This document shows, in pieces, positions 5,701 through 56,000 of a DNA stretch of 64,000 bases (positions are counted from its first letter, which is position 1; every line of letters starts with the position of its first letter). The DNA is from Varroa destructor (lineage: Eukaryota > Arthropoda > Arachnida > Mesostigmata > Varroidae), in the NCBI RefSeq assembly GCF_002443255.2, contig NW_019211456.1:53547743-53611742 (forward strand). The letters are read 5' to 3'. A program made the position numbers and the translations under genes. The notes under the pieces were generated by a model that was not told the DNA's origin, made no database searches, and saw nothing but the letters and a program-made list of their open reading frames with translations.

Positions 5701-8700
5701 CTCTGCGAAGCGTACACGGAAGTGCAGCCTTTCATTAATCTCTACATCTTTCCCGGAATTGGCTAAGACTCAGCTACAATGACACATGTTTGGTGAAACT
5801 GGGACGGATGCTAAGAAATGCTTAAAACAGTTGTTACAGAGATCTAGATATGGCTCTTGACATTGATTAAGCGAGGTTATCCCACATAATAAAATCGCTA
5901 TACAAAGTAAAATCATCTTTTCGCGACAATGGGGAAAGGTGACTTTGCTTTTTATAGCCTATGAAAATTGCGCAAGTTGCCCTGCAAAAAGTTAATCAGG
6001 TAGTTTTTTTTACACCCACTGAAAAGAGTTCTACAGAGCTCGTGCCTACAACTTGCCACTTTTTCCAGACTCTGTTTAAAATTAGTAATACTACGTTTGG
6101 CAGTGCAACGGGTATCAAAACTTAGTTCACATTTTAACTGTATGGCAATTAACGTTTCTTTCTTCAAATTTTCTCTCACCCTACTGCAACCGATGCTCAG
6201 CTCCGATTATATTTTGAACGATATACTTTGTATTAAAATTAATTTGAAATTAAGACTACAAGTGTTCGCTTGTTGCTCTGATGCTTGTTTATGGTTTCTT
6301 TGGAGATGTTCATTTATTGGAATTAAGATCAAAGGCTTCCTTTACTCACAGCTATCATCAGTATAGTAAGAACGATTCATAAACTTTGTTTTCTTCTTTG
6401 TCATTGATTTGGTGACTCGTATACTTTTTATTTCATTGAGTACTCCGCTCTGAAAATTCAAACTAGAGAAGCATTGAAATGTGTTTCCAACTAGCGTTTT
6501 AAAACTACTCTACTTCCCTGTTTAGCACTTATAATATTTTCCTCCACCCATTTATCCGGATATTTTTATTTAGTATATTTATTTAGTATTTTAATTTTTT
6601 TAATTATCAAAATATTTCTTCAAAATGTTTGTAGTACCTGTACATTGAATTGTAGCTGCGATAATTAATTATACTGCTTGTTTTATCGTAAACAAAACAT
6701 TCTATCTGCGCGGTTCAATTCTATGCAACGATTTTTTCGATGGTATGCGCAACCAAAATAGGTCTCTCATAAGTTTGAAGTGCTCACCAAAGAAATGCCT
6801 CTTAGAGAAATCCGTTTTATATTTTGCGTTGATACATGCACTTTTGGTTTGGTCTAAGTGTTGGATATCAAAAAAATGTTATCAAGGTTACCCTTTTATC
6901 TACTGAATACGAAAAATATAATCAGGGTATTTAGTCAAAATAAAACCTAAGACAAAAGCATAGATTCTAATATTAAAAACTGATGTCAATTACATCTAAG
7001 AACGCTGTAACTCACCCAGTGCGGATCGTTTTGGCTATCACCCTCGGGATCAAGTACAACAGTTTGATAAGCTCGAAAGTCGGTGGCATAAATCCGTCTA
7101 TTATCAGGGCATACATCATCGTCATCACCAACGCCATCACCATCGAAATCGCCTTTGCACGCGTCTCCCACTCCTATTAAATCAAATACCGCAAACATAA
7201 TCGAAAATATCTGAGAGGTCTAGTTAGATAGAATGAGCATATTAACAATTTCACGGTTATGGTCCTACTCCCCTTAAACGTCGACTCTACCTCTATTAGA
7301 ACACTACCCCGGTTCTTCTTAATATGTGTGAATATGAATGCGATGATATTGAAGAATTAGAAGGCGAAATAAAAGAAGCATTTAGTGTTCGTATGAAATC
7401 AAACCAAACTGTTTTAATTTCATTCGAGTAAACGTTATTCGACTTATTACAGTATATTTTAATTTTATATCTGTTGCTTCTAGTCTTTCTTGATATTTTT
7501 CCATTGTTGATGAAGCTAGATGTCGAAGAGTTCCTACCACAGTAAACATTCCTAAGTCATATTGACTATTACCATAAAATTATAAGTATCGTAATTTGAC
7601 TCCCGTTTTGTATCAAGCCAACGCGGTTTACGATTATTAGCTTTCAACGTATTATCTCTTTGACCAGAATGAGTCCTCACTGCTGGCTTAACCGTATATG
7701 AATACACCCTGAATGAATCCTTAGGCTTCATTCATATGAATACAAGTTTCATCAGTTGAAAAGTTACGATCCGGGTCTTTTCCAATTTTATGGAATAATA
7801 TTAGTATCTGCCAATTTTGCTTTAACATCTCGTAATTGAGGATGTTGCAAAATATCTGGAACTAACAGCATCTTCACTCTACTAATTTTGACCACACGAA
7901 AAAATGGCAAATATTTAACTAAATCAGGAATATCTGCCAACGTCTATCCATATAAGCTCTTGTCACCTTCCTTTAATAACTCTATATTGCCACCCTATGC
8001 TTTGCAAATTTGCCGCGTCAGCGTCACGTAAATATGCTTTTTAGAAAACCTCTTAAATCTTGGCCAGCGACGATATACAAGGCGTCGCCTACAATGCTTA
8101 TGCCTAGTGATAATGACTCCTATCTTGATCAATGCCTTCGACTGGTACCGGTGAACACTTGCCCGTTGATAATCAGCACCAGCGAACGATAAATAAGCAC
8201 TAGTAAGTCCAGCGACGATTGGAATAAGACTACCTTTGCCTCGGATACTTATCCGGGCAATCTTTCCTCCAACCGGAACACCGGTACGTTTACGTGAAGT
8301 GCCCAACAGCAAAAGTAGAATGACATCTGTAGCCATGTTATCTCAAATACCAGCTAGTTAATGCGCTTTTAAAGAAACGTTCAGAAAGGACAAACGGTAA
8401 GCTGGCCAGATGCGCTATAAATCTCATTTCGTCTCGTCGCGGACGAGACGCTTGAGTATATAGACCATGAGTGACTACCGCTCCATCAACACTTCTGGAT
8501 GCCATTGGTGTTTTACCACCAGTAACTACACAGAAGAACGTTATCAAACTCAGAGAAAACTCTAAATTAAATATTTACTTTGCGGAAGCGAGCGTGCAGT
8601 ATAAGGAACGGCTTATTTACAAGGCTAGTATACGTACAAAAATTCGATTAGTTAGCTCAGATAAAAACTTTGATTGGACAATGAGGCCACTACGAGGTCG

Positions 8701-11700
8701 CTAAAGCCTTAAGCATCCAGGCTGCCGAATATTGCAAGAAGGAGAATAGCTACTTCTTGGCATTTTTGAAAGATCTTCGCAGACAGAAAAACAATTCAAG
8801 ATGCCTGCGAAACTTGCGTTTCTAATTCTAGCCACGAATACAAACTTGTGGCTAAAAATCACCCTTCTGTATTTGTTAAATACTGGAGGAGGTTCAAAGA
8901 ACTGGTTTATATGGCTAACCCTACTCAGCTGCAGAATCACAGAACTAAGTTAATCATGATTTGGGGTCCTACTGGAACCGGGAAATCTGAGCGCTGCAAC
9001 AAAATCGCCATTTTTATTGATCCATTTTTTATTTATTTATTATATTTATACCATTGACTATAATGAATATCACTAGTTATAAAAATATATTTGGAGGTAA
9101 ACTCGATCGAGCCTCCTTGCCACAGATCTTCTCAAGTTCATCCCATTTACTCCATCCATAAAAATCGTCTATGATAATACTATTCTCTTGGTGGTAATTG
9201 TTCCACCAGAGACTCCGATTTTTATAATAAACGGAACCGAGGGTGATTTTATTGTAGTACATAGATGTACCTATTTGAGAACGGTTATGTGGTCAACATC
9301 ATAGCAGCATGAAAACAGATAGTTTTAGAAAACGTATTACGCTTGTTAAAACTGTAAAATAATTTCGAAACGTATTATATCGAATATGGAAATTCGGACA
9401 CTTAGGAAATTTCCAAATGCAATGTTACATCTAATTTACTGACAAGCTGACAATAGATGCTTATATGTGACCAGCGAAAACCATGCTATGTCATGCTGAA
9501 GACTATTTTTATCATTTCGGTCTTATTCCTTTATACTGCAATGCTCGACAGGTCTCAAGTCTTACCTTCGTCAACAAAGATATCAATCGAAGAAAAGCGT
9601 TAAGTGCGTTTTCATGTAAAAGGCGTCATTTATACTAGAAACACATATTCGAGAGACTGACATTCCTTATTTGTATCACTTTAATTTTCGATAGCGTACG
9701 CATTTTGTGAAGACATGCGCACGTAGACATCTGAATTCATTGTAGCATAACCTTGAAGAAATGTAAATTATGTATGTAATTATTAAATGAAGTATCAAGG
9801 TGCTCTGCAGTTGCTTAAAGGTTTCTGTATATTTACATTAGATTTTTTACGGCCTGAAGACCACCAGTGAAACATGGTTGGAGAGCAAAATAATTCTGCC
9901 TACATGAATCGCATATTGAGCCTGCTCACATGTTGTGCTAAATGCGACTCAAGCAAGCATACCAGTATTGTTAGTGTCCTTTTGATCCGGGTTGTATACC
10001 AAAGGGCAGTTATCCACGTTGTCTCTGATGCCATCTTCGTCCTTATCGAAGTCACAGACGTCACCCTAAAATTGAAAAGTAGTAGAATTGTGGTTTAAAA
10101 GCCACGTCGGAGAAAAAAAAACGCTAATTCAAAGCCTTAATAGGTAATACACGCTGTGAAAATGCAGCGGGTCTACAATGGTATTCTTATGGCTGTGAGT
10201 CTTTCGTGAGAGATTAAACCAATGAAGAATTTGTGGAAAACTCCACAGCTAATCTATTGTTAACGCCTTATTTAACTAACATGTTTTTTTAATAACTGAC
10301 TGTTTTTGACAAAATTTGACAATGATAATGACATGAGAAGCAATTTGCCATCTTTATCAAACTAATTAGCATGTTCTTTTTATTCAATCATGCCTGCGGT
10401 ATGATAAATATCATTAACGGGAATCGAACCAGCGACCCCCTACTTATGTATGAAGTTGGAGGTCGCAAAAGAAATTCGCACACGAAAAGAGTTGTCGAAT
10501 ATCTGCCAACACACCTTTCAATCACTCGCCTTACATTAGAAAGCTTGCTTTGATATGGTGCCGCATTTTAAGATAAATGGGTGCATTCGAAAGATTTGGC
10601 ATTATATCTAGGCGGGGGTTAGGGTGCGCACACATTTCAACTGCCGGTTTGTTAAGAGTTAAATTGGACTAAAACTACGCCTCGTTTCACTCAAATTTGG
10701 AGGCAGCATGGTCATGTGCTCTGTAGTAGAAGCGATTTACTTTCCTCCACCTGCGGACAAACTTCAAATCCTACCCCTACGGGAGACAAATTACTTAATA
10801 TTACCTGATTTTAGAATGCTAGACCTACGAAAAACCTTCAACTATATGTTTACGGGTACGAAATTAAGGTCAGGGCATAAACCTAGCATATACTTTAGTG
10901 CGCAAGCAATGGCACACCAAGCAGTCCTCTTAGTATGAGAAAATCTAGCTGATTGATATTCATCCGGTGTCTCTTTAGATATACTTTCAATTTCCTCAAA
11001 TAATCTGTAAGAGTTTTTTTTATGCTGAATACTTAATATACTTATAGCGGATGTACACCTTAACTGTACGGTCGAATACAATTTGCTTTTGCTCTAAATC
11101 AGGATCATTCCATTGATAATTCTTTTTGCTTATCCATGGAATGCTACGCAGTTTTCGAACAATCCAACGTCTACACAGAAGACTCATAATGTGGAATAAA
11201 CAAAAACGCCCAAAAATAGACCTACTCTTGATTGTCCTGGCATCGCAGAGCAAAATTTAGGGATTATTTGGCAAACTAGCGTGCCCTTTGAGGTTTTCGG
11301 ATACCTTAAACATTCTGTTAGACCTTTGCTAACAGATAGGCCAAACTTTAATGTTTTTTTTTGTTGTTATACCTAATTTAGCCAATATCATGTCATTTAA
11401 ACCTGTCAGTGATTTTTTTCAAATTGAAAAAAAGTTGTAAAAAGTTACTTAGGCGTGGCTGTATATTACATGGTTATAAAAACATTGTTACTTCTGTAGT
11501 CATTAATTCTCTCATGCAATTTTGTTATTAACTGCAACGCTGTCCGGATCGAACTTCAGAAAATCATTATACATATTTTCTCATGGACCATGGGGCTGAC
11601 AAGAATTACCGGGGACCTTTATCTGGGGATAATTAGGGACCTTAATCTGAACTTCTGACAGTTTCGTCACTTTTCACCCAATTTATCAACGCTGACACTT

Positions 11701-47000: not shown

Positions 47001-50000
47001 ATATAGTTTGTTTATATGTATAGGAAAACTTAATAGGCGTGTGAGGTTCCTTAGAAAAATTCGAATGCAAATCAAAAGGCAGGGTCTAAACATTTTATCT
47101 GGAGTATACTGAGTTAAATAAATGGGCATTCTTAGTGGCTTGCGCATGTTGGAAATTATGGTGACCGATACCCTGATCTAGTATGAAACGATATATTTCA
47201 CCACAGATCCAGACGCACTATGTCAACACTGTATAAAGAACGAATTGAGTATTCAACAAAAGTAAAACATGGTTTTTCTGTACTGAGCAGAAATATATAG
47301 AAACCATAGCTTTACTGTCCGGCATTCAGATAGGTATGAATAAAGTAAGAGCAGTGAGATCAATGAAAGCTCCTCATAAAAGTATCTATACGAACTACAT
47401 GTGAAAATTTTTAATAGACATAGCGACCGTACAAAACCTATAGGGCTACTACGGCCACTAAAAGTACAGCTGTGTCGACATACGTTAAACGCTATGCAAT
47501 ATTTAAGAGATTTATATGGCCAAAAGCACCAGTAGTTGCCACTTTCATGTGGAGAAGCCGATTATGATATAAATGGACCGAAATAACGCTAACGGTTGTA
47601 GAGTACATTCACAAAAACATAGCATATAAGATCGAGGAAGTGCAACTTTCCAACCGGACGAGCAGGACTATGCTGCTGTGAAAAAATAATTGCACGCCGC
47701 TGGCGTCCTACGCAAAACGCAAAATTTGACTGAGACGGACACGGATTCTTAATCACTTGCCTCGAACAGGTTCTACAGGATTATGCCTAAGCAGTCACAA
47801 GCTTCACAAATTTAAAGGCTTGGGGCAAGTGTATAAAAAAATGCAAACATTGAATCCGATCACAAAACGGAACGGTTTAAAATAGTTTTATTTGTTTTTA
47901 TTGTAAGTATCACGATAATCTTTGCGAAATCTTTGAGAAAAACTTTCGAAGTAACATTATTTAGTCGCTTAATCACCATTTTTGTGCCCACTTGAAAATT
48001 AGTAAAAGGTTGTATGCTTCGGCCAAGATTAAAAGTAGAACTGGATTTTTGAACCAGATTTTTGTGAATGCTGCGCTGGGAAAATTATCCAAGGAGTTAA
48101 AAAAAAGTTTTCTAGATATGGGTAATTTAATTGCGTAAATAGGCGCGCGTATTAGCTTAAGCGCTAGTACGCAAATCTGCGTGCAATTACGAGGCAAGTA
48201 CGAGCAGCGGGTGTTATGAATATATTTAGCAATAGTCGCCTTTAGCTCTAAGGGCAAAAGTACAGCGCAATTATTCATTGGAATCGAGCACATCTTAGGC
48301 TACAGTCGAAAGTGACGAAGGAAGGATAGCAGAAACAGCAACACGTGATGCAGATCTCTAACGCAGCTCCATACAATGTAATATCAGTAGATTTAATGAT
48401 AGCTTGAACAATTTCCAGTTATTATGGTATATGTAAAGCCCAAGGAAAAGACTAAAGAACTAAAGAAATAGTAGTTATAGAAAGTAAAAGATTAGTCACA
48501 GTATTGAAAGGATGCAAGGGAATTCGGAACGCGATATCGTAAACGATAATGCGTAACACTTTAGCTTTTTATATTTAATGCAGTTATAACATGTGTAAGT
48601 TTCACTTATTTCACTATTATTTCACTAGGCTTGTTGGATAACTGTCGTGTTTTCTAGTGCCGTAGTGGTAATTAAATAGTTGTAGTAACGGAAATTGATC
48701 CGAGTTGTATGTGCAGTACTACCAGAATCATAATCGTAGGAAGTTGGTACGATGCGTATAAGCACAGTGGGCATTAACTGCAATACGATTTTAAAAAAGG
48801 GAGTGTTGTGAAAATAAACAATAAACAAAAAACTCATCGGCCGGCGATCGACTTTCGATTTATTCAGTGGTCCTAGATAGAATTGATAAAGAACAAGTAT
48901 CTGCAAAGAAAAATTGTTATTGGGAAGTATAGTAAGGTTGAGAAAAAGCAATTTTCACTCTATTTTTGAACGCCTTAAGTGGAATATAATTTCATATTGA
49001 TGAATCAAAAAACCAATTAGAATACCAAAAAAAAAACTAAAAAATGAAAAGATCGTTTTTTAGCAACGATAATTACAATGATGGTCATTTATTAGACTTA
49101 CTAAATAAATCTAGAACCAACATAGGGTTAGCCTGATACTCAAAATTTACATTGTTGACAACGAAAGCATAAAAATGAATAAAAAAGACATGAAAGACGG
49201 AAACATTGACAGTGTCACGGAATTCAAGCCGGAGGGAGTTGAATACATATATNNNNNNNNNNNNNNNNNNNNNNNNNNNNNNNNNNNNNNNNNNNNNNNN
49301 NNNNNNNNNNNNNNNNNNNNNNNNNNNNNNNNNNNNNNNNNNNNNNNNNNNNTATATATAAGAATATATTGAGTATAAATGCAGTATAGTCGGAGACCGT
49401 ATCTGCATAACGTACCTTCGATGCAATCTCCGCAGCGAAAGCTTCCTTGTGCGTTTATACAGACAGAGTTCTCTACGCATCCTCCATTGTTTCCGTCGTC
49501 ACACTCGTTTATATCAAAACACTGCTGTTTGAAGAGGCGAGCAGAGTTTATTCCAACTCCTGAATGAATCATCACAAATTTTACTATTGTGTTAAAAATA
49601 AATATAAAATTGCTGCTGGATTTACCTGGAAAGGTAAATTCGATTTGTACTACAAGAGTCATAGAAAGAGCCAGATAAATAAAATGCAATTAAATTATAA
49701 TTTACTTAACTTTGGGTATAACATCGAATATTACAGAATTCAATTCTGCAGCGAGTCACTGCAACAAGACAACCAAATTGTTGGCGCATTCTATAAACAC
49801 AGCATGATTATTGGAGCAAATAGAGTTGACGAGGTAAATGTTAGTGTACACCCGTTCTGGGATACGACGTCAACGAATAAGATTAGCCGAACGAACGACA
49901 AAACGTTCATCAATGAAGGTTGCTGATAACAGTATACTTAGAATACTCTAGAATAGAATAGAATAGCGAATGAGTACTAAGTACATTAGATAGAGACATG

Positions 50001-53000: not shown

Positions 53001-56000
53001 ATTGATGGGTTTGCCAATGCAAAATACTCATGGTCGGTCATCACAAGTATACTCTGTCCTCTTAACTAATTGTCCCTTAAAATATAAAAAAAAGAGCATC
53101 AATTGTACTTACTAGGTATTTTCGACTAAGGTAACAACTGTGTGGTTCATTATTTCTTCCCTGACTTATTCAAATACAACAGTCCTTATACAGCAGAATA
53201 TTTAGCTATAAAGTAAACATACAACGTTGATCGGTGAGATACTGACAAATCTTAAGCAGTTGTGTTTTTACTCATCAATTTGTATATCAAATGAGTACTT
53301 CCTTATCACTCGAAAGAGTATAGGACTGTAAATAATAATCAATGTGAATGCCTTGATTATGAGTCTTGCGGGAATTAAAAATAGACCACTGTTTTATCCA
53401 CTTTGAAAAAGATTATTGAAAGACTGATTTCTGGTTTACCTAGGTAACTAGTACTACTAAGTAAACTAATGCTAAGTAAACAAATCTGCGCCATCCTTAC
53501 CTTTCAACTTACAAACTGTTTGCGTAAATCTATATATTTCGGTTAACATGCTATTGTCATTCCTTTAGATCTTCGAATAGCATTTGATTCAATTAATAAT
53601 TGATTCAATTTGATTCACTGAATTATTGGATATAAGTAAGGGCACAGAATCCATTGCAAATTGGGCCATGCCTGTCTCTCAAACATAATAATATAATCCT
53701 GTTTTTTGGACATGCGTCTTCCACTCAATTTTAAACATATTCCTGATGTATTCATAAATTCCTGTGTACAAAATGAAGCTATAAATCGATAAAGAAGCGT
53801 TCGTTTCATAGAAGTTATGCCAAACTCGTTAATGGTATCCATACCTCCTAGATGAGAGCAGGCATCTGTAGGGTAAGAAACGCCATAGAGTCGAATTTGT
53901 CTTCTGTTCGTATTCCATTCTATTGTATGACGCTTTCTTTACTCGATTTCCTCGAACATCAGCTATGGAGTCGAATACCCTTTTCTGACTTATGCCAGTT
54001 ACCATCGCTCCAAAAAAGGACTCTGAATTGTTTATTTTTATAGGACCTCAATGATAGTTCAAGCCACTGTTACTTACTTTCGTTGAGTATAGTTTGTGCA
54101 TATTAGATTTAAGATTAATTGTTAGAACTAACATTAATGTATGTGAGATATGAGATCAATGAATTATAGCCGCAAAAATTATTCTTGTCTATTATTGTTG
54201 AAAGTACAATTGTGGAACTCTGACTGCTATTTTTATTACTATTTATTGAAATAAAACTTTTATAGCTATAGTATTTTATTATAAGTGGTTGAGGCATTTG
54301 CATGGCTAAATTTGCAGTGGAAAAATTCAAGCAGGAACGTCTACTGTTAATAGTAGCTATAGGGATTCAAGGCCGACACAACTAAAAATATGTGCAGATG
54401 TGGAACTAAGAATAAATCATGCGCAATTGCCTATGCGTCCTTCTGACCTTATTCTTGATAATATTATTACATCTACATACACACTGAAACGGACTCAAAA
54501 ATATATTGTTATAATGCATTTCAGATGCGGCCGGCTGGAGGTTTTTATATATCCACAGCCGACCGACTAGTCGCTAGTCGCCGGCGAGCACTTGGGAGGA
54601 TTTAAGCACACACTTAACAGATACTTCCTCTTAAATGAGTTCGGCCCCCCAGAAATGTTCTCGCCAGCCGCCAGCAACGTTTACGGCTAGGCTGTTTTTC
54701 TGCCTAACATCAATAAAAAATAAAGTCTATTACCACACAAAACTCGTCGGAGCGGTGAATCCGGCTTTGTAGTCAACCTCGAACCAAACGGTTTAATGCT
54801 ATACGCCAGAAGATAACAGAGGGAATCTACTTTCAACGGAGAGGCCTCGCGCCACATTTATGAACCGACGTAGCGTATTATCGCTACGAAGGACACTTCC
54901 CATTGCCTATGCGTAAGGTCGGGGAACACGACGACTCCCGAAATGGGTTTCTTAGTCGCCTGATTCATCAGAACAGGTGTCCAGTCAAGAGTTGAAGTCG
55001 ACACGGGGTTGGAGGGTATTGGTCTTTTACGGGCCGTGCTGGATATTGGCGTTAAGGTAAGTGTCGTTTTAACCGTGTTTTTGGAACATACCAGCGTGTA
55101 TGTCTTGGTGAGGACTGAAGGGTGCGTAATGGTATACGCTAGTAGGCGACTCTCAGCCCAGGAAAGAAGTGGCGGTCGCCTTCCGGTCTAGGATGTCGTT
55201 TACCCGCGAACCCGCCTGTATCTGTACAGGCAATTTACAGTGGTACAGCAGTGCATTCAAGAACTTGCATTAAGGGAGGCTTTTGCTCGAAATTGGCCTA
55301 GTAGGCTGTGGAGTTGTTGGAATACGATTTCCGACACCTGAGCGGCACGGCGAACCGCAACGTCGACGGCCTGTCATGTCACAGTTCTATCGCTGAAAAC
55401 TATGATGCTGGCAATTACAACACCCACTATGCGAGTTTGTGCGGGTCTCTGGTGCTAGCTACGCCTCAGAGAGGCGATTTTGTCAAACAAGAGTGGGAGA
55501 TGGCCCCCTTCACATTGCGTGAAGCCGCGCTTTTCCATTCAAAATCTCTAATCGATCAGTCGAAACAGCTGTGTTCGCTCAGTTGTATAAATTATGCATT
55601 AATAAGCTTCATATGTCGTAAAAATTTGCATATGAACTGAACCTGGTATGCAGTTACGAAAGCCATAGTGGTTATTTATTAATTTTCTCTACAGTTTATT
55701 AACCATATAACTAAGTATTGTTAGAATATATCTGGGAAACTCTTTTGTCCTACTAAATAGTTATAAAGGCAAGCAATGGGCCCCGAAAAATGAATGTCTG
55801 GCAATGTTGGCAAAAAACAATGTCCTTAACCGAAGCAAGTGACTCTGGCGTGACTATAACTGAGAGTGTTACTTTCAAAGATAGACAATCGTTAGATTAG
55901 TCCATATATCTTAGCTATAGTCTTACCTGTGTGCGAAGCAAAAGTCGATTCCGCAGCTATTTGATATCAAAAAGTCAGCATTATAAGTTTACTTTTTATG

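Follow-up and report, generated by a model that had tools for sequence, protein, structure and literature searches.

The genome of the mite Varroa destructor carries, in an intron of a thrombospondin-like gene, a nearly complete, circularly permuted and rearranged circovirid fossil. It occupies positions 7249-9280 of the window, the whole stretch of 64,000 nucleotides analyzed here, which corresponds to C3:53547743-53611742 of assembly Vdes_3.0 (366.2 Mb; other contigs are named C1, C2, C6, and C25). These ~2.03 kb of decayed circovirid DNA contain nearly all the components of a circular genome with two genes, and the copy is likely almost whole; its size falls within the range of circovirid genomes, ~1.7-2.1 kb. 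From left to right, the insert holds a likely Rep tail on the plus strand, a cap-like gene on the minus strand, a hairpin, the Rep start through Walker A on the plus strand, and Walker B with motif C on the minus strand, and rep and the cap-like gene diverge around the origin region. With a probability of about 0.8, the locus represents a decayed circovirid genome, probably cyclovirus-like, that carries rep and likely also cap and was likely inserted as a circle opened in rep, with its last piece flipped. Endogenous circoviral elements are a known kind of sequence, and this one is unusually complete for an arthropod. Its parts and the two flanking exons are as follows (E, expect value; L numbers designate related loci elsewhere in the mite genome).

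7249..7398, plus strand: likely Rep C-terminal tail with one internal stop (L022 frame match at 7267-7398, E 1e-11; L010 Rep residues 308-354, E 0.26)
7418..8057, minus strand: core of the cap-like gene with its C-terminal part, spread over several frames and containing stops (tblastn matches to frames of L024 and L022, E as low as 5e-29)
8130..8342, minus strand: cap-like gene, upstream segment, open (63% identity to the L024 frame, E 9e-24)
8430..8450, no strand assigned: origin-like hairpin with a 9-bp perfect stem and a 3-base loop, nonanucleotide absent (stem search)
8467..8756, plus strand: Rep start with motifs I, II, and III, four stops and a frame change (aligned motifs)
8779..9009, plus strand: Rep middle part with Walker A, open (PDB 7lar Rep, E 4.4e-5; relatives, E ~1e-10)
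9042..9280, minus strand: flipped helicase piece with Walker B and motif C (PDB Rep, E 2.9e-10; PF00910, 21.5 bits; L014 Rep residues 179-250)
9963..10065, minus strand: host exon upstream of the insert, thrombospondin type 3 repeat (PF02412, 36.9 bits on 9949-10065; AG before, GTATGC after)
7016..7173, minus strand: host exon downstream of the insert, thrombospondin type 3 repeat (PF02412, 32.2 bits on 7016-7219; acceptor AG before 7173, donor GTGAGT after 7016)

The similarity of this region to circovirid sequences is not due to chance. A tblastn comparison of positions 7000-10100 with 1105 frames taken from 17 relative loci gave 72 matches at E<=1e-3, while 20 shuffles of the same stretch gave either no match (15 shuffles) or a single one (five shuffles). 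Of 56 tblastn matches, two fell elsewhere in the window, at about 19000 and 56000. The insert begins at about 7249, where the likely Rep tail starts, and ends at about 9235-9280, the flipped helicase piece being weakly matched over 9236-9280. The original prediction had placed the viral sequence at 7382..9262; a viral insert is present there, and its left limit has been moved outward.

The assignment of the window pieces to a Rep protein, with HUH motifs I-III and the motifs of an SF3 helicase, is firm. The minus-strand frame at 9077-9292 matches two solved Rep proteins in the PDB (E 2.9e-10 and 5.9e-10), which we take to be those of porcine circovirus, and the flipped piece reaches PF00910 at 21.5 bits, exactly the cut-off of that family. 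The plus-strand frame at 8770-9057 matches one of the same two proteins, 7lar, and motifs I-III align at 8488-8756 across the four stops. The plus and minus pieces correspond to neighboring parts of the solved Rep (chain residues 122-190 and 193-232), yet they lie on opposite strands. Consistent with this arrangement, when the genome was searched for the open Rep frame of L014, the window was recovered as two matches, one per strand. The L024 search recovered it as well, and it is not among the 19 matches of PF02407 in the genome. The Rep motifs named in the original prediction are thus present, motifs I-III with Walker A on the plus strand and Walker B, together with motif C, on the other and outside the Rep frame, a strand change that the original prediction missed. 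Among the viral contigs of IMG/VR, no relative of the Walker B piece was found with the piece alone or as a two-row alignment, and the piece padded with X gave no match as a query.

The sequence at 7249-7398 is called the Rep tail mainly because L022 possesses Walker B, motif C, the same tail, and cap in unbroken order. Both L022 and L024 carry the tail beside cap.

Between the tail and the Rep start, the minus strand is 62-66% identical to frames of L024 (E 5e-29), and frames of L022 align there too; nucleotide similarity to L022 is unbroken over 7275-8377 (64%). The cap core shows the signature of a coding sequence. Compared with L024, identity at the three codon positions is 0.76, 0.81, and 0.56, with a nonsynonymous divergence (dN) of 0.22 and a synonymous divergence (dS) of 1.58 over 109 codons. 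Comparison with L022 gave dN/dS values of 0.28/1.23 and 0.50/1.36 over 49 and 48 codons. The low dN and high dS indicate that the core encoded a functional protein while it diverged. The upstream segment has a weaker codon signal, with identities of 0.80, 0.76, and 0.75, a dN of 0.24, and a dS of 0.40. An Arg-rich stretch and an RKPRWL block are found on the minus strand, and the block is retained in the relatives. Based on this codon-level constraint and on its position, the cap-like gene is likely Cap.

The resemblance to L022 and L024 also bears on the origin of the locus. Their closely similar architecture could mean that the window insert arose by segmental duplication from one of the other loci. 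However, nucleotide identity is just 64-65% and is confined to the viral part. The matches to L022 and L024 end inside 7275-9235 and do not extend into the flanks, which indicates separate insertions, and the large excess of dS over dN in the cap core points to divergence in working genes, before insertion. A segmental duplication is therefore highly improbable.

Several results weigh against the interpretation of the insert as a nearly whole genome with rep and cap. The nonanucleotide of the origin is absent in the window, which is read as a loss in a decayed copy. None of the four minus-strand pieces of the cap region matches Circo_capsid (PF02443, Pfam), and the best relative, the L024 frame, reaches this family at E 3.5e-4 and 21.4 bits, under the cut-off of 36.2. 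In PDB searches, the 65-residue C-terminal piece of the window matched no solved structure, and the cap-like frames matched no capsid. The proposed Rep tail aligns with residues 308-354 of L010 Rep at 7249-7383 only weakly (E 0.26, or 0.17 against a shorter stretch), and the tails of L013 and L014 do not match it. Of the capsid traits in the original prediction, the Arg-rich stretch and RKPRWL block are present, and the C-terminal piece has no counterpart among solved structures. Among 18 cap-like frames of the relatives, three match Circo_capsid at E<=0.1, and one further frame matches an unrelated family, TelK_N (E 4.9e-4). The profile of cap-like frames A2 found five unnamed proteins at E<=1 on contigs of up to 41 kb, and these are possibly copies from mite genomes.

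The hairpin at 8430-8450 ends 16 bases upstream of the Rep ATG at 8467. A stem of 9 bp was equaled in 13 of 2000 shuffles of the spacer and in 10 of 497 blocks of 128 bases taken from the whole window, so the hairpin alone is weak evidence for an origin. In five of the 17 relatives (L009, L010, L012, L013, and L014), [CT]AGTATTAC stands at the tip of the stem, which in these five scores 10-12 with one mismatch allowed, and three further relatives carry other nonamers. In cycloviruses, the origin motif lies on the strand of cap. The motif in four of the five relatives is on the strand of the adjoining cap side (or of an additional frame there, OrfX, described below), which fits the cyclovirus layout; in L013 it is flanked by two rep pieces that have opposite orientations. 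Circovirid genera are described as differing in gene orientation relative to the origin (PMC12197738, in the passage cited), and arthropod circovirids are given as type II in the corresponding part of Rosario 2018 (PMC6186406). Perfect stems also occur in the spacers of L018 (15 bp) and L025 (9 bp), each with a loop of 3 bases, as in the window. A repeated loss of the nonanucleotide loop after insertion is possible for these three hairpins.

In the assembly sequence, the insert is contiguous with host exons on both sides, ~53.5 Mb within the 58.5-Mb scaffold C3. Both exons lie above the PF02412 cut-off of 25 bits, and they join in frame (10065-9963 to 7173-7016) across an intron of 2,789 bases at 7174-9962 that has the form GT...AG. 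This bears out the original description of divergent broken frames between two host exons. The insert itself is dead, as indicated by its stops and frameshifts: one stop in the matched piece of the tail, four in the Rep start, and two to three in the middle of cap, with the cap pieces spread over three frames. An assembly error or contamination that placed viral sequence in the scaffold deserves next to no credence, given these stops and frame changes, the joining of the exons, and the absence of any N run near the insert (the sole N run of the window is a 100-base scaffold gap at 49253-49352). It could also be asked whether the insert has a present use for the host, such as supplying small RNAs against related viruses. 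Small-RNA-type roles have been described for viral fossils of arthropods, and by direct reading the cap-like gene lies on the minus strand, as does the thrombospondin-like host gene. The decay of the frames argues against such a use, which seems quite improbable.

The order and strands of the pieces suggest that the opening of the circle lay in the interval that separates motif C from the tail, and relatives at other loci of the genome show the unflipped order. A virus would first have reached mite germ cells, where a double-stranded circle would have been broken at this point and host end-joining would have sealed the viral DNA into the intron. The terminal ~240 bases, spanning Walker B and motif C, would have been joined back to front, perhaps through a fold-back or a staggered break. 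Decay would have followed, since an intron tolerates such an insert, and no present function need be invoked. One detail favors a fold-back or staggered join. Just past Walker A, ~27 bases are apparently present on both strands, 19 of 27 bases having a counterpart on the opposite strand immediately past the flipped piece; random 65-base stretches gave as much in 2 of 5000 trials.

An alternative history is that the viral genome entered with its parts in the usual order and that ~240 bases inside rep were inverted afterwards by the host. Such an inversion would account for the adjacency of the plus and minus pieces in Rep numbering, at residues 190 and 193. However, the opening of the circle, from motif C to the tail, lies at the far end of this very piece, so the inversion would have to coincide with the edge of the insert, and both the repeated bases near Walker A and the inverted viral duplications at other loci count against it. 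A later inversion is therefore rather unlikely.

The same duplications speak for another history, a tail-to-tail union of two viral molecules or of a single one that had folded back, with the right piece as the remainder of a second copy. Inverted viral duplications were found at four of 17 loci, with identities of 99.4% in L009 (C1:76.7 Mb, 329 bases), 99.5% in L010 (C2:46.0 Mb, 404 bases), 98.5% in L014 (C3:50.4 Mb, 882 bases), and 73% in L022. Those of L009, L010, and L014 are likely recent. L023 has a fifth inverted pair, which does not lie within viral sequence. In addition, rep occurs on both strands at six of 47 rep loci, the window included, and the overlap near Walker A also favors such a junction. 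On the other hand, the second copy would have been cut almost exactly at the end of the first, with an overlap of only those ~27 bases. Tail-to-tail joining is thus a substantial possibility at clearly less than even odds, and the opening of a single circle in rep with a flipped last piece is preferred.

The window is one of about 53 circovirid loci counted in the genome: 26 with rep and cap, 21 with rep only, and six with cap only. Matches within 3 kb were grouped, and because only the best candidates were scored, the counts may be too low. The Rep frame of L014 gave 74 matches genome-wide. The frames of L024 and L001 gave 18 and 19 cap-like matches, some of them short and weak (E up to 7.5e-4). 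Predicted capsid sequence is present at 32 of the 53 loci, and cap-like sequence adjoins rep in 13 of the 17 relative stretches examined. Of the rep and cap loci, 16 are divergent, five convergent, four mixed, and one has both genes on the same strand. Intact-looking Rep frames are found at other loci; for that of L014, the best named match was Cyclovirus sp. at 49%, among the matches listed (the best 120 of 451), with circoviruses further down.

This abundance recalls a rep-driven selfish element spreading within the genome, a possibility considered for Varroa in the cited part of Liu 2011 (PMC3198968), and Rep does have nickase and helicase parts. Nevertheless, a majority of the loci retain cap, the window, L022, and L024 each have different breakpoints, and the cap core bears the codon signature of a virus gene. 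Spread as a selfish element is very unlikely. The conclusion of the original prediction, that a whole circular genome was captured and that this lineage was a real host of such a virus, is supported: the genome is nearly whole, if permuted, and the lineage was repeatedly a host. Two points need amendment: the copy is rearranged, with its helicase part flipped, and it is not a lone event. The flip in the window, the inverted duplications at L009, L010, and L014, and the loci with rep on both strands would point to capture by folding back. It may tentatively be proposed, at somewhat under even odds, that the genome holds an archive of whole circovirid genomes repeatedly captured as fold-back molecules by one recurring route, which was active until recently, and that the virus lineage is perhaps still circulating in the mite.

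Endogenous elements of V. destructor have been reported before: the cited parts of Liu 2011 (PMC3198968) and Dennis 2018 (PMC6069186) give counts of 56 Rep-like sequences and of 19 related to circoviruses, and place them with the cycloviruses. Those elements come from the same species and the same virus group as the window locus, which adds to the published rep-only lists a likely cap, an origin region, and a flipped rep end. The tables cited from these two papers, supplements aside, contain no entry for a capsid fossil of Varroa, and no paper on the subject was among those listed from the open-licence literature, as judged by title or the start of the abstract. The original prediction knew of no earlier description of the insertion; this holds for the capsid part as far as the literature covered here extends, while circovirid Rep fossils of the mite were already in print. 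Similarly, capsid fossils are rare, as had been stated, in the portions of the published screens cited, but not in the Varroa genome.

Elsewhere, four endogenous Rep-Cap cases are named in the cited part of Dennis 2019 (PMC6372831), in carps, vipers, tinamou, and parrots. As in the window, rep and cap are both present. In contrast, these elements have vertebrate hosts and belong to the genus Circovirus, with full-length tandem copies in carps, and the passages cited report no flip. The nearest invertebrate parallel in the cited part of Rosario 2018 (PMC6186406) is an element of Hymenolepis microstoma that resembles cycloviruses; it contains rep together with part of a capsid, and one rep copy is broken at Walker A. 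There, the capsid is in frame with the broken rep, whereas the window has a divergent cap-like gene and a flipped Walker B. Varroa mite associated virus 1, a circular DNA virus of 1,811 nucleotides from the same mite, has CAGTATTAC, as at L009 and L010, but its Rep and coat protein (CP) genes have the same sense whereas those of the window diverge, as compared by description (Kraberger 2018, PMC5834324).

Given that published screens of Varroa, in the parts cited, concern rep only, the loci with capsid-like sequence would be a source of old capsid sequences. Such an archive would serve the cycloviruses, a group whose true hosts are disputed, by tying them firmly to a bee parasite. Moreover, the insertions range from decayed, as in the window, to near-identical inverted copies and would form a series in which the entry of small circular DNA viruses into animal chromosomes can be read. 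The window locus is an entry to this much larger set of mite circovirid fossils.

Other observations concern the wider set. At seven of 17 loci (L009, L010, L011, L012, L014, L016, and L018), OrfX, an extra frame of up to 98 residues, is conserved on the cap side of rep; one copy compared with Pfam gave no match above the cut-off. The loci at C6:1742642-1744024 and C25:6622-8004 have identical rep and cap match scores, so they may be one locus assembled twice, or a duplication. Two annotated gene models, LOC111248264 of V. destructor (P0007, at L001/L009, C1:76746586-76747101) and LOC111267634 of V. jacobsoni (P0006), start with the N-terminus of a circovirid Rep and continue past Walker A to collagen-like repeats. 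The two are nearly identical by eye, so the insertion likely predates the split of V. destructor and V. jacobsoni, and it may be a host-virus fusion gene. The unnamed Reps P0002 and P0003, 64% and 58% identical to that of L014, are on 2.4-kb contigs, which would suit free circular viruses related to the mite fossils. Within the window but outside the insert, 55305-55640 on the plus strand holds an open frame that presumably resembles part of a Ty3/Gypsy polyprotein.

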